Origin: Mucilaginibacter roseus
GTDB taxonomy: Bacteria; Bacteroidota; Bacteroidia; Sphingobacteriales; Sphingobacteriaceae
DNA length: 64,000 nucleotides
Direction of reading: 5' to 3'
Assembly (NCBI RefSeq): GCF_021215455.1
Contig: NZ_JAJPWV010000002.1
Location: 372,001-436,000, forward strand
A program made the translations under genes and the position numbers. This document shows, piece by piece, positions 6,951 to 11,009 of the stretch. A model generated the notes under the pieces. The model made no database searches. It saw nothing but the letters and a program-made list of their open reading frames with translations, and was not told where the DNA came from. Position 1 is the first letter of the stretch; every line of letters begins with the position of its first letter.

Positions 6951-9221
6951 TTACTTTGCAGACACCGAGAATGGTTTATCACCCTCAGCAACACCGCGAG
7001 AAGTGTTGGGTTTACTATCCATCAACAGGTTAAATGTGCCGCCTTTCATCATATCGCCATAAGTAATATAGTTCTGTGTGTGAGCTTTACCGTTCAGTTT
7101 GGCTGATTGTACATACACATTAGCCTGGCTGTTATTGGTAGCATCTATCACGAATTTCCTACCATTTTCGAGCGTGATGGTAGCTTTTTTAAATACCGGG
7201 CTGCCTATCACGTATTGATCCGTGCCCGGGCAAACGCTGTATAAACCCAGCGCGCTCAATACATACCATGATGAGGTTTGCCCCTGATCTTCATCACCCG
7301 GATAACCATCCTCGGTAGCATTATACAACTTGCTCATAATGTTGCGCAGGTGATATTGCGATTTCCAGGGCTGGCCTGCATAATTGTACAGATAAGCCAT
7401 GTGCTGTATAGGCTGATTGCCATGCGCGTACTGCCCCATGTTGATCATGGCCATCTCCGTCATCTCATGTATCGGGCCGCCGTAGGTGCCTACCTTGAAT
7501 TTATTAGGCTCGGTAAACACCGAATCGAGCTTGGCTACGAATTTCTGATCGCTGCCGATAAGGCCTGTTAAGCCTTTAATATCATGAAAAACCGACCATA
7601 CCCAATGCCATGGCGCACCCTCGGTAAAGGGGCCGCCCCACTCTATAGGGTCAAAATTGGCAGACCATTGGCCATCCCCATCCCTGCCCTGCATAAAGCC
7701 GGTTGCCGGGTTAAATACATTTTTGTAGTTATACATTTGCCTTGCAAAAACGCCCTCGTAGAATGGGTTATTGGTCATTTTAGCTAACTGGTAGCCGCAA
7801 AAATCATCATAAGCATATTCCAAAGTTTTGGCTGTTGCTTCGCGATATTTTGGGTATGGTACGTAGCCCAACTCGAAGTATTCCTTCCAGCCGTCCCGTC
7901 CGTTTGCTGGGCCCCACGGGCCTTTGTTAAATGCTTCATGACGGTAGGCTTCCAACGCTTTTTTCGGGTCGAACGTACGGATGCCCTTTGCCCAGGCATC
8001 GGCAAATAATGATATGGCGTGATTACCGATCATACTACCCGCCTCGCCGGGGAACGACCATGATGGCAGCCAGCCGCATTGATCATACGCTGCCAGCATA
8101 GCCTGCATGTATTGCCCGTGCATTTTAGGGTACATTAAAGCATTTAGCGGAAACTGCGCGCGAAAAGTGTCCCAAAAGCCGGTATCGGTGTACATATAGC
8201 CCTCATGTACCTTGCCATCATACGGACTAAAGTAGTAAGGCTTCCCATTTTTATCATACTCAAAAAACTGGCGCGAGAACAGGCTCGCTCTGAAAAAGCA
8301 TGAGTAAAAAGTAGCTTTTTCCTCCTCCGTGCCACCCTCAACCAAAATACGGCTCAGGTGCTTGTTCCATACCTTTTGGGCGGCAAGTTTGGTAGCCTCC
8401 AGGTTTTTATCCTTACCCAATTCGCGTTGCAGGGTCAGGTCGGCCTGCTCAGGGCTTACGTAGGATGATGCCGCTTTTGCCTGCACCGAGCGTTTGCCAC
8501 TTTTGAACTGTACATAAACGCCCACCTTTTTGCCTTGTATAGCCGTTTCGGATGGGTTGATCTTGTCGTTCTCCTTTGTCCAGGTGCCGCAGGCCACTAT
8601 CGGCGAATCAAATATCACCTCGAAGTAGCTTTTAAAATTATCCGTTAAGCCACGGCCATTATGTACCCAGCCGGTTATCCTTTTATTTTTTATATCGATT
8701 TTGATATCGCTTTGCTCGGTATAGCCATCCAGCACCAAAAAGTTATCACCTTCGCCGGTAAAGCTGAAACGCAGGTGCGCCCCACGCTCGGATGGTGAAA
8801 TTTCGGTAGTAATGCCGTTGTCAAACTTAACCTTGTAATAGTTGGGCTTGGCTACCTCGTTGGCATGGCTGAATTTCAACGCGCGGGCATCCTCATTAAC
8901 CACCAGCTTACCGGCTACCGGCATCAGGGAGAAAACGCAGTAATCATTCGTCCACGAGCTGCATTGGTGCGCCTGCTGAAAGCCGCGTATGGTTTCCTTT
9001 TTGTACTGGTATTTCCAGCCATCGCCGTTGTTACCGGTTTGGGGTGTCCAGGTGTGCATACCAAAGGGTAAGGCCGTTGTAGGATAAGTGTTACCACGCG
9101 TTAGCCTATGTTCAGAATTGGTGCCCTGTAACGTATTTACATACTTCACCAGGTCGGCATCCTGCGCAAATGCCGTGTTTACGGCACATATTGCTAATAT
9201 GCCGGCTTTAATAAGTTTCAT
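6951..9221 (-). CDS. GH92 alpha-mannosidase, exported
   Basis: Calcium-dependent exo-alpha-mannosidase family, 756 residues from the chosen start. A longer frame begins at 9326, but the ATG at 9221 opens directly with a signal peptide (MKLIKAGILAICAVNTAFAQ) and is preferred. GH92 landmarks are the N-terminal beta-sandwich start (VNTLQGTNSEHRLTRGNTYPTT split around G), FWDTFRAQFPL, ADAWAKGI and the catalytic-region block DEDQGQTSSWYVLSALGLY. Members act on N-glycan or yeast mannan linkages in the periplasm. Linkage preference cannot be read from sequence. It is divergent from the leader/S10 unit. Confidence 0.94.
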   Translation of the reverse strand: MKLIKAGILAICAVNTAFAQDADLVKYVNTLQGTNSEHRLTRGNTYPTTALPFGMHTWTPQTGNNGDGWKYQYKKETIRGFQQAHQCSSWTNDYCVFSLMPVAGKLVVNEDARALKFSHANEVAKPNYYKVKFDNGITTEISPSERGAHLRFSFTGEGDNFLVLDGYTEQSDIKIDIKNKRITGWVHNGRGLTDNFKSYFEVIFDSPIVACGTWTKENDKINPSETAIQGKKVGVYVQFKSGKRSVQAKAASSYVSPEQADLTLQRELGKDKNLEATKLAAQKVWNKHLSRILVEGGTEEEKATFYSCFFRASLFSRQFFEYDKNGKPYYFSPYDGKVHEGYMYTDTGFWDTFRAQFPLNALMYPKMHGQYMQAMLAAYDQCGWLPSWSFPGEAGSMIGNHAISLFADAWAKGIRTFDPKKALEAYRHEAFNKGPWGPANGRDGWKEYFELGYVPYPKYREATAKTLEYAYDDFCGYQLAKMTNNPFYEGVFARQMYNYKNVFNPATGFMQGRDGDGQWSANFDPIEWGGPFTEGAPWHWVWSVFHDIKGLTGLIGSDQKFVAKLDSVFTEPNKFKVGTYGGPIHEMTEMAMINMGQYAHGNQPIQHMAYLYNYAGQPWKSQYHLRNIMSKLYNATEDGYPGDEDQGQTSSWYVLSALGLYSVCPGTDQYVIGSPVFKKATITLENGRKFVIDATNNSQANVYVQSAKLNGKAHTQNYITYGDMMKGGTFNLLMDSKPNTSRGVAEGDKPFSVSAK

Positions 9222-9358
9222 AAAAAGTGATTGGTTAGAACAGTATAGTTTAATTCGCCCTAAAATACAGCTATCGCCCTTAAAACCATCACCCTCAACG
9301 TAAAATATTGATGACGGTATACCCAATTAATAAATACTACAAAATTGATAGATTTTAT

Positions 9359-9389
9359 TTTGAACTATGAAACAGAGCTATTACATTTG
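9359..9389 (+). promoter_or_regulatory. Canonical Bacteroidota sigma promoter for the cysteine leader
   Basis: A -33 box TTTG at 9359-9362 and a -7 box TACATTTG at 9382-9389 are separated by exactly 19 bases, the textbook TTTG-N19-TAnnTTTG arrangement. The expected transcription start is near 9394-9396, only a few bases before the leader ATG at 9401. It is the best promoter match I found in the window. Confidence 0.8.
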
Positions 9390-9400
9390 CACTATCTGAT

Positions 9401-9475
9401 ATGACTACTCAAAATATCATAGGTTCAATAATGCGAATGCCTCTGTGCCAAGGGGTCATGTGTTGCTGCTGTTAA
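9401..9475 (+). CDS. Short leader peptide ending in four cysteines
   Basis: A 24-codon ORF (ATG 9401, TAA 9473-9475) starts about six bases after a predicted transcription start. It ends in Met followed by four consecutive Cys codons (TGT TGC TGC TGT) and the stop, with one more Cys at codon 16. Such runs of one amino acid just before a stop are typical of attenuation leaders that sense the charged tRNA of that amino acid; poly-Cys uORFs are known in mycobacteria. The S10 peptidase gene begins 61 bases after the stop. No translation evidence is available here. Confidence 0.6.
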   Translation: MTTQNIIGSIMRMPLCQGVMCCCC

Positions 9476-9504
9476 TTCCCCTTCGGCACGCTGCTACACA
9501 GCAA
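9445..9504 (+). promoter_or_regulatory. Competing RNA hairpins over the cysteine codons
   Basis: GTGCCAAGGGG (9445-9455) pairs with CCCCTTCGGCAC (9478-9489) with a single bulged C; the loop contains the four Cys codons. The last two Cys codons (TGCTGT, 9467-9472) can instead pair with ACAGCA (9498-9503), and GCTG/CAGC (9490-9502) can form a local stem. A ribosome stalled on Cys codons would melt the first stem. There is no T-run after it, so control of translation or a pseudoknot is as plausible as termination. Confidence 0.45.
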
Positions 9505-9536
9505 TTCTCATTACAAAAACTTACTGATATTTTTCT

Positions 9537-11009
9537 ATGTTCGCTTCTTCCCGTCTACACGTATATATTTTTCGCCTGGCTTATTTTGCGCTTATCGCAG
9601 CTGTTTCGGTAACACTTTTCAGCTCGTGGGGCGCTGCACCAAGCAAATTAACCTTTGCCCACGCAGCCGGTGCATCAGCACTAAAAACCACCGTTTCGGC
9701 ACATACCATTAAGCTTGGCGGCAATCAATTAAACTACACCTCTACAGCCGGTTACCTGCAGGTTGCTGATGGCCGTTTTGGCGCCAACATATTTTACACT
9801 GCCTATAAGGTGAACGATGGCCAGCCAAATCGACCGGTTACTTTTGTGTTTAACGGCGGTCCCGGCTCGTCATCCATATGGCTGCACATGGGCGCTTTCG
9901 GCCCGGTACGCAGCACTCCTGGAAAGGCCGGTTACCAAACCAACCCCGACAGTTGGCTTGGCTTCACCGATTTGGTATTTATCGATCCCGTCGGCACAGG
10001 CTACAGCCGCCCTGCCGACGGTACTGATGCACGCCGCTTTTACGGCTACCATGAGGATGTACGTATTATAGGAAATTTTATAAGCCGGTACCTGGCATAT
10101 AATAACCGGCAGCAACGCCCTGTGTTTTTAACCGGCGAAAGTTATGGCGGCGCACGTGCCGTAGGACTGGCTTCGTATTTAGCTGATGAGCAGCATGTAG
10201 AAGTAGCCGGACTAACTCTGATCTCGCCCGCGCTGAACTACCGTTTGATCAGCTTTAAGGATAAAAACACGGCAGCCTACCCGCTATACCTGCCAAGCTA
10301 CGCGCTGGCAGCGCAATATCATCAGCGTTTAATCGCGGAATGGCAGGCATTGCCCGGCAGCGAATTGTATAGGATAGCAGAGAATTTTAGCACGACTACC
10401 TATAGCCGTTTTTTAGCCTCCGGCGATACCATAACACAAACTATTACTGATACATTACGATTGTTAACCGGCTTGCCCGAACATACCATCCGCGGCTTAA
10501 ACGGCCGTATACCCGACCATGTATTTACCCGCTTGGTTTTGAACAACAACCGTGTTGGTATTTTTGACGCAAGAACAAGCGGGGCAAACAATAAGGCCGA
10601 TCCAAGTTCGGCACGCTTGAGGGCGGTGTTTCCGCAGGCATTTAAAACTTATGTTGAGGATGAGCTGAAGTACCGTAACGCACTCCCCTACCTGGCCACT
10701 ACTGCAACGCCAAACTGGAATTACGGCCCCGCTGCCGAGGGTAGTTATTTAAATGTATTGCCTACCTTAACCACATTGCTTTACAAGCATAAGGCTTTGA
10801 AAGTAAATATAGTATCAGGCTATTATGACCTGGCTACACCAGTAGCCACCATCAATGCATCGGTAAAACAGCTATTGGCTAACCAAGCCTTTAAAACAAG
10901 GGTAAACGCGCATTACTACCAATCAGGCCATATGCCTTATATCGATGATGAGGTCAACCACCAATTCTCGGCCGATAGCCGCGGTTTTTATGCCGCAACT
11001 TTAAATTAG
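9537..11009 (+). CDS. Serine carboxypeptidase, family S10, exported
   Basis: Alpha/beta-hydrolase peptidase of 490 residues that removes C-terminal amino acids. An N-terminal hydrophobic segment (residues 12-32) is a signal peptide or anchor. The oxyanion motif is FNGGPGSSS (105-113). The triad is S202 (TGESYGG), D431 (GYYDLATP) and H465 (SGHMPY). Bacteroidota carry many such S10 proteins of unknown substrate. It lies downstream of the cysteine-rich leader ORF and its stop overlaps the end of the convergent mannonate dehydratase gene by four bases. Confidence 0.92.

Follow-up and report, generated by a model that had tools for sequence, protein, structure and literature searches.

The S10 carboxypeptidase-family gene of Mucilaginibacter roseus is preceded by a short open reading frame ending in four cysteine codons which, as comparison between genomes indicates, is a genuine leader ORF and a member of a widespread leader family. 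We regard it as probably a cysteine-sensing translational attenuator that acts on S10 in cis through a ribosome queue, where the sensing and the sign of the response are what we infer. The initial annotation of this DNA had picked out the ORF, and its observation is real and wider than it supposed. Across related genera, leaders of the same kind stand before the same few genes, which suggests an undescribed adjustment of expression to cysteine supply, and for the family as a whole a cysteine-sensing function is the best-supported reading of the comparison. Poly-Cys leaders were known already from Actinobacteria and Rhodobacterales, whereas the Bacteroidota leaders and their S10, PhyH and metY targets appear to be new, as judged from the open-access literature. 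The features of the locus are listed below, with positions counted in the window, i.e., the whole 64,000-nucleotide stretch of DNA that was analysed.

9359..9362, + strand: TTTG, the -33 element of a Bacteroidota-type promoter (window sequence and S10 orthologues)
9382..9389, + strand: -7 element TACATTTG, 19 nt after the TTTG
9401..9475, + strand: leader ORF MTTQNIIGSIMRMPLCQGVMCCCC followed by the stop, 24 codons, ending in MRMPLCQGVMCCCC and the stop; ATG at 9401, TAA at 9473-9475
9411..9438, + strand: 5' strand of helix P0, leader codons 4-13 (fold and covariation)
9431..9439, + strand: AUGCGAAUG box, Met-Arg-Met with a CGA Arg codon (invariant or near-invariant columns of alignment A1)
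9440..9445, + strand: 5' arm of the conserved in-frame hairpin (covariation)
9450..9455, + strand: 3' arm of the conserved in-frame hairpin (covariation)
9445..9489, + strand: stem of the initial annotation, 9445-9455 with 9478-9489 (minimum free energy (MFE) fold; weak across species)
9461..9472, + strand: four Cys codons, TGT TGC TGC TGT, then TAA (window sequence and S10 orthologues)
9504..9533, + strand: 3' strand of P0, ending 3 nt short of the S10 start codon (fold and covariation)
9537..11009, + strand: S10 serine carboxypeptidase-family gene, 490 aa, putative regulated gene (Pfam and PDB relatives)

The promoter (TTTG-N19-TACATTTG) and the 24-codon ORF at 9401-9475 with its terminal Met and four Cys are both present as the initial annotation had described them. 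With the leader ATG beginning 12 nt beyond where the -7 element ends, a very short 5' end is predicted. All the S10 orthologues (14/14) have TAnnTTTG at a distance of 37-69 nt ahead of the MRM codon; by eye, the -33 element of these reads TTTG in ten and TTG in two, with neither in the remaining two (L112, L115). The gene that follows belongs to Peptidase_S10 (PF00450, E 1.1e-23 in a Pfam search), its relatives of solved structure in the PDB are serine carboxypeptidases, and the N-terminus suggests that the enzyme is exported. Its ATG at 9537 is separated from the leader stop by 61 nt, and on the other side of the leader is a divergently oriented gene of glycosyl hydrolase family 92. We know of no link between S10 and sulfur.

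An ORF of this kind could in principle be a chance product without function. Cys-rich ORF ends in a loose sense (at least three Cys in the last nine residues) are indeed common, occurring in 6.7% of random 330-nt window segments and upstream of 6/38 window ORFs. Under a strict rule (CCC or four Cys among the final six residues of an ORF) the frequency was 1.5% of random 330-nt window segments, and only one of the 38 mechanical ORFs of at least 200 aa, that of S10, had such an end in the 330 nt upstream. The chance explanation is contradicted by the comparison across genera, where leaders are kept ahead of the same genes, and we consider it next to impossible; at S10 itself, retention of the leader in the orthologues settles the question. 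A search of 301 family genomes with the leader peptide found it identical in two other genomes and at 83% identity in a third. S10 protein matches at E <= 1e-60 were found in 26/149 genus genomes (29 loci), and a poly-Cys leader stands at most 250 nt upstream in all 14 of the closest orthologues (L103-L116) and in 16 of the 29 Mucilaginibacter S10 loci. In L103-L116 the leader ends are of the type MRM(P/S)xxxxxMC(C/S)CC before the stop, or near it; L118 and L120 have an S10 leader with a longer spacer. No leader was found within 250 nt of ten distant S10 paralogues. In three further loci (L117, L119, L129) S10 comes just after what looks like the end of a PhyH gene, and such a leader is again present at a greater distance; in two of the three it is followed by PhyH (L138, L132). 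The adjoining S10 and PhyH genes of these three loci suggest a common pathway. The initial annotation had expected the Cys run to be kept while the rest of the ORF drifts, and this was borne out at S10, PhyH and metY.

The family extends well beyond S10. A search of 301 genomes of the family with a 15-base core returned 62 places, 14 of which (9 outside the genus) were dropped as chance. With R1, a covariance model built from 24 core sequences, matches were obtained in 79/149 genus genomes at E <= 0.1 (about 100 places, inspected to E about 0.003 together with three weaker ones) and in 68/399 family genomes at E <= 0.001, corresponding to 73 places in 5/25 genera. Among the 21 of these 73 places that lie outside the genus, 20 were inspected (G164 left out), and every one of the 20 had a Cys-run ORF, 19 before PhyH and one before an AhpC-TSA gene. 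The leader rule held for 54 of 59 model hits; the other five (L168, L170-L173) read MRMPFPKKVMVCCC before the stop. A Cys run without a start codon at L189 is probably chance. Downstream of 114 distinct pooled leaders we found PhyH (59), metY (16), S10 (11), AhpC-TSA (7), TonB-type (6), porin-like (1) and other genes (14, of which 7 outside the genus), the TonB and porin names having been assigned by eye. In the window's own genome, a search for Cys runs gave eight places including the window leader, which was also the sole match there to the type-A leader model; at another of the genome's loci, L005, a Cys-run ORF ends 20 nt ahead of an ORF. PhyH was not detected in this genome at E <= 1e-5, an empty result that is weakly informative for this search.

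Taking the best 80 of 356 PhyH relatives, from Pedobacter, Mucilaginibacter, Flavobacterium and MAGs, 76 of these closest named loci have an ORF within 330 nt upstream with at least three Cys in its last nine residues. The remaining four, all from Flavobacterium (L264, L270, L272, L288), have a Cys-run ORF without a stop before the PhyH start, which by eye it overruns in another frame. In Flavobacterium and one Pedobacter group the Cys run follows directly after MRM, without the hairpin. AhpC-TSA genes were seen 167-227 nt downstream of a poly-Cys leader in L075, L078, L079, L081, L084, L186 and L208, with a carbonic-anhydrase-type gene (by eye) also following in L075, L079, L081 and L084. TonB-type receptor genes and one porin-like gene, again by eye, follow poly-Cys leaders in L065, L069, L073, L182, L185, L191 and L188.

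A link to sulfur metabolism is provided by metY, the homocysteine/cysteine synthase gene (TIGR01326), whose product was found in 58/61 Mucilaginibacter genomes at E <= 1e-150. Upstream regions were inspected in 50 of the 58, and 48 (28/30 and 20/20) have a Cys-rich leader end, most commonly CICMCCCC before the stop, while the other two end in RRCC. The metY leader of the window's own genome (L314) reads MKILFSIPENIVQHNQYGLNPYCCMCMCCC before its stop. Every Mucilaginibacter metY locus that was scanned (8/8) has a SAM riboswitch ahead of the leader. Across the class (119 genomes) we inspected 25 metY loci besides that of this genome: 10 have a Cys-rich ORF end and 15 lack one by the same criterion, and a SAM riboswitch was detected in 13 of the 18 scanned. 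Of the ten with a Cys-rich end, all nine that were scanned (each but L364) also have the riboswitch, one of them from the same genus, so the tandem arrangement of riboswitch and leader is not confined to Mucilaginibacter. The SAM-I riboswitch as such (RF00162) is shared at metY, where the poly-Cys leader comes as an addition behind the aptamer. In the window's own genome, L314 on contig C1 runs from SAM riboswitch to poly-Cys leader to metY and thus has two amino-acid sensors on one mRNA. Rfam at gathering score detected no leader family over the leaders at 12 loci including the window locus (L009), nor was a SAM riboswitch found on the window S10 transcript when L009 was scanned. The 12 loci gave a single Rfam match, to a SAM riboswitch beside an S10 leader in L014 (1253-1357, minus strand).

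The Cys runs reach eight residues, and some leaders precede TonB-type receptors or a porin-like or AhpC-TSA protein. CutF-like upstream ORFs are copper-responsive, and a Cys-rich nascent or released peptide might likewise sense metal or redox state in place of tRNA-Cys charging. We find this very unlikely, given the association with metY and its SAM riboswitch and the variation in Cys number and neighbours among leaders (CSCCC, CCYCCC, CGCCY); moreover, with the Cys codons at or near the stop, these residues would presumably not yet have left the exit tunnel when translation terminates.

Translation of the leaders is supported, but not proven, by constraint at the level of codons and by pN/pS values below 1: 0.29 in Flavobacterium (13 leaders), 0.52 and 0.48 in two Pedobacter sets (11 each) and 0.59 at metY (21). 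A third-position excess is clear in Flavobacterium and in the second Pedobacter set (pN/pS 0.48), slight in metY and absent from the Pedobacter set with pN/pS 0.52, and part of the coding signal could stem from constraint on the RNA. The spacer between MRM and the Cys run varies by whole codons (+1 in L111 and L169; -1 in L175, L176 and L180). One count of these spacers relied on a pattern restricted to lengths of 18 or 21 nt and, taken alone, does not test the frame. Within the last nine codons of 103 leaders, cysteine is encoded by 355 TGT and 152 TGC. At the MRM box there is conservation of the nucleotides as well: arginine is encoded there by CGA in 102/104 MRM leaders (among 115 distinct leaders examined), and CGA makes up 25/828 Arg codons of the downstream PhyH genes; in the box it may act either as a slow codon or as an RNA signal.

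Two RNA elements covary. The first is the in-frame hairpin of six pairs between the MRM box and the Cys run, which is paired in 79.9% of the cells of the 24-row alignment A1. Cells with changes on both sides number 24, against a shuffled mean of 11.0 (0/500) and at most 13 in slid controls; five pairs changed on both sides, a value reached by 87/500 shuffles. Permutation of the duplexes gave 0/20000 both in S10 (10 leaders) and in PhyH (46 leaders, reduced from 54 by identity), and RNAalifold predicted no structure on the core alignment A1. The second element, P0, pairs leader codons 4-13 (9411-9438) with 9504-9533 in the fold of the window leader. It was spotted in four printed folds and then tested on ten divergent S10 leaders, chosen by leaving out the near-identical or near relatives L104-L106 and L116. 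Cognate duplexes had a mean of -12.8 kcal/mol against -8.7 kcal/mol when permuted (0/20000; p 0.0001 in a second test), p-values that ignore phylogeny. Single-sequence z-scores ranged from -1.1 to -4.2 over the ten leaders and were -1.3, -3.0, -2.6, -2.9, -4.2 and -3.0 in the six beyond the four that had suggested the helix; in L108 the cognate duplex was no better than non-cognate ones. The PhyH set from Mucilaginibacter and Pedobacter gave no sign of P0 (p 0.18), nor did a search of the metY leaders find a P0-like helix. Ten closely related Flavobacterium PhyH leaders have a helix of like place, with a mean z of -2.83.

These elements take the place of the competing stems with the Cys codons that the initial annotation had put forward. 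The window leader folds well as a single sequence (9391-9540, z -3.47, with 0/200 shuffles as good), and its MFE structure does include the proposed stem of 9445-9455 with 9478-9489; across species, however, pairing of the pre-Cys segment with the region after the stop was weak (a permutation p of 0.03 for S10 and of 0.50 for PhyH). Likewise, TGCTGT at 9467-9472 is by inspection complementary to ACAGCA at 9498-9503, as had been claimed, but this pairing is absent from the MFE fold and gave permutation p-values of 0.10 in S10 and 0.76 in PhyH for the Cys codons against downstream sequence. What covaries is the hairpin before the Cys run and, for S10, P0. The wider proposal that a Cys-codon leader controls the downstream gene is well supported by our comparison, but the mechanism of competing stems is not supported in the form proposed.

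A leader with hairpins resembles an attenuator of transcription, so that classical attenuation at an intrinsic terminator, or termination by Rho governed by translation of the leader, has to be weighed as well. Rho is one of the possibilities proposed for the terminator-less actinobacterial cys leaders in the portion of that report considered here (PMC1262725). A ribosome-mediated transcription attenuator has an intrinsic terminator between leader and gene, and no terminator-like site was found in 9200-9600. At metY, the consensus from RNAalifold on 28 loci was weak and placed a hairpin downstream of the leader stop; by eye, the 28 aligned sequences show no U-tract behind this hairpin on the way to metY. 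Control by termination thus appears improbable to us. An ACACGT...ACGTGT-like hairpin can be seen just after the leader stop in metY leaders such as L309 and L314.

In the modelled fold, the leader ORF of S10 pairs with the S10 initiation region, and a helix that hides this region with one strand made of leader coding sequence has the layout of a translational attenuator. Conservation of the ORF, constraint on its codons, covariation of the hairpin and P0 and the gene associations emerge from the comparison, and the mechanism we propose adds to them a presumed translation, cysteine sensing, ribosome queue and sign of response. The leader (9401-9475) would be translated, with its Cys codons tying ribosome transit to charged tRNA-Cys, and in the free mRNA P0 would mask the S10 initiation region. 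When cysteine is short, ribosomes would stall at the Cys codons, trailing ribosomes would come to lie over codons 4-13, P0 would open and S10 would be made; when cysteine is plentiful, the leader would be cleared and P0 would close between ribosomes. S10 would then be one of a cysteine-leader set together with metY (after its SAM riboswitch) and the PhyH-type dioxygenase gene.

The queue is suggested by the geometry. A ribosome covers about 30 nt. On this footprint, one stalled at the first Cys codon would span about 9446-9476 and the next about 9416-9446, and because this second ribosome covers most of the 5' strand of P0, we propose that a queue forms at cysteine shortage. When one ribosome was masked at the first Cys codon, mean accessibility of the S10 start in 16 leaders was 0.468, compared with 0.464 for the free RNA and 0.466 with the ribosome at the stop, and in the S10, metY and PhyH sets a single stalled ribosome never shifted mean start accessibility by more than 0.02. 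As a single mask leaves the S10 start unchanged, a queue or another step is needed.

The same architecture could also work with the opposite sign. P0 lies inside the leader ORF, which means that leader translation must open it, and with the S10 start 61 nt past the leader stop, finished translation of the leader might promote S10 by coupling or reinitiation, so that plentiful cysteine would raise S10 and shortage lower it. The four Flavobacterium leaders that lack a stop ahead of the PhyH start agree with such coupling. For metY, however, a cysteine/homocysteine synthase gene with a like leader in 48/50 genomes, one expects induction by shortage; this association favours that sign, and we judge the reverse response to be unlikely.

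Induction of S10 by cysteine shortage may belong to a larger scheme, in which Bacteroidota have a widespread cysteine-leader regulon of their own, composed of a near-invariant AUGCGAAUG box with the rare CGA, an in-frame hairpin that covaries in Mucilaginibacter and Pedobacter, the Cys run, a helix hiding the S10 start without a Shine-Dalgarno sequence, and at metY a two-input switch that combines methionine status, through the SAM riboswitch, with cysteine status. This broader proposal we find plausible but still somewhat doubtful. If it holds, one ribosome-based sensor tunes sulfur metabolism, an S10 carboxypeptidase and a PhyH dioxygenase in several genera; sulfur supply would be the first functional lead for the latter two enzymes, and the leaders would offer a natural system in which to study how translation is attenuated in bacteria not dependent on Shine-Dalgarno sequences.

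Among known systems, poly-Cys leaders have been described at actinobacterial cys/cbs operons (PMC1262725), which, as far as that account goes, likewise have Cys runs near the stop codon and no conserved terminator, with different genes. The polycysteine leaderless sORFs of mycobacteria (Canestrari et al. 2020, as cited in PMC13236596, PMC9094748 and PMC9031893) are summarised in PMC9031893 as attenuation in which cysteine sets ribosome speed. In these citing accounts they are also short ORFs with contiguous Cys codons before regulated genes, and the sulfur/cysteine genes downstream of them are matched in this genome by metY but not, as far as is known, by S10. In contrast to them, the Bacteroidota leaders belong to another phylum, have a covarying hairpin, P0 at S10 and the AUGCGAAUG box, target S10, PhyH and metY, and stand in tandem with a SAM riboswitch at metY. 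The uORFC-8-2 motif upstream of cysS in Rhodobacterales, which its authors read as ribosome-mediated attenuation (PMC8632094), also combines RNA structure with a uORF that contains Cys codons in tandem; in the description consulted it differs by having two Cys codons, cysS as its target and a U-run terminator, where the window leader has S10 as its target and no terminator-like site was found. A Cys run near the stop that is conserved across species, the general mark of Cys-codon leader peptides, is found in the window leader. For Bacteroidota, a Flavobacterium psychrophilum transcriptome gave strong clues of leader-peptide attenuation at amino acid biosynthesis operons, in a passage that leaves cysteine unnamed (PMC9723704), and part of a Bacteroides map report notes short ORFs reminiscent of leader peptides (PMC7366714). 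In agreement with the initial annotation, which knew of no case in this phylum, our searches of open-access articles turned up no account of a cysteine leader from Bacteroidota.

A further element may act at some of these promoters. In L112, L115 and L116, a palindrome-like stretch (TCTAT/TCTAC..ATAGA) is visible by eye downstream of the -7 element and ahead of the leader's start codon, and the same stretch occurs in Flavobacterium and Pedobacter PhyH loci, e.g., L263 and L251; it is perhaps the operator of a transcription factor.
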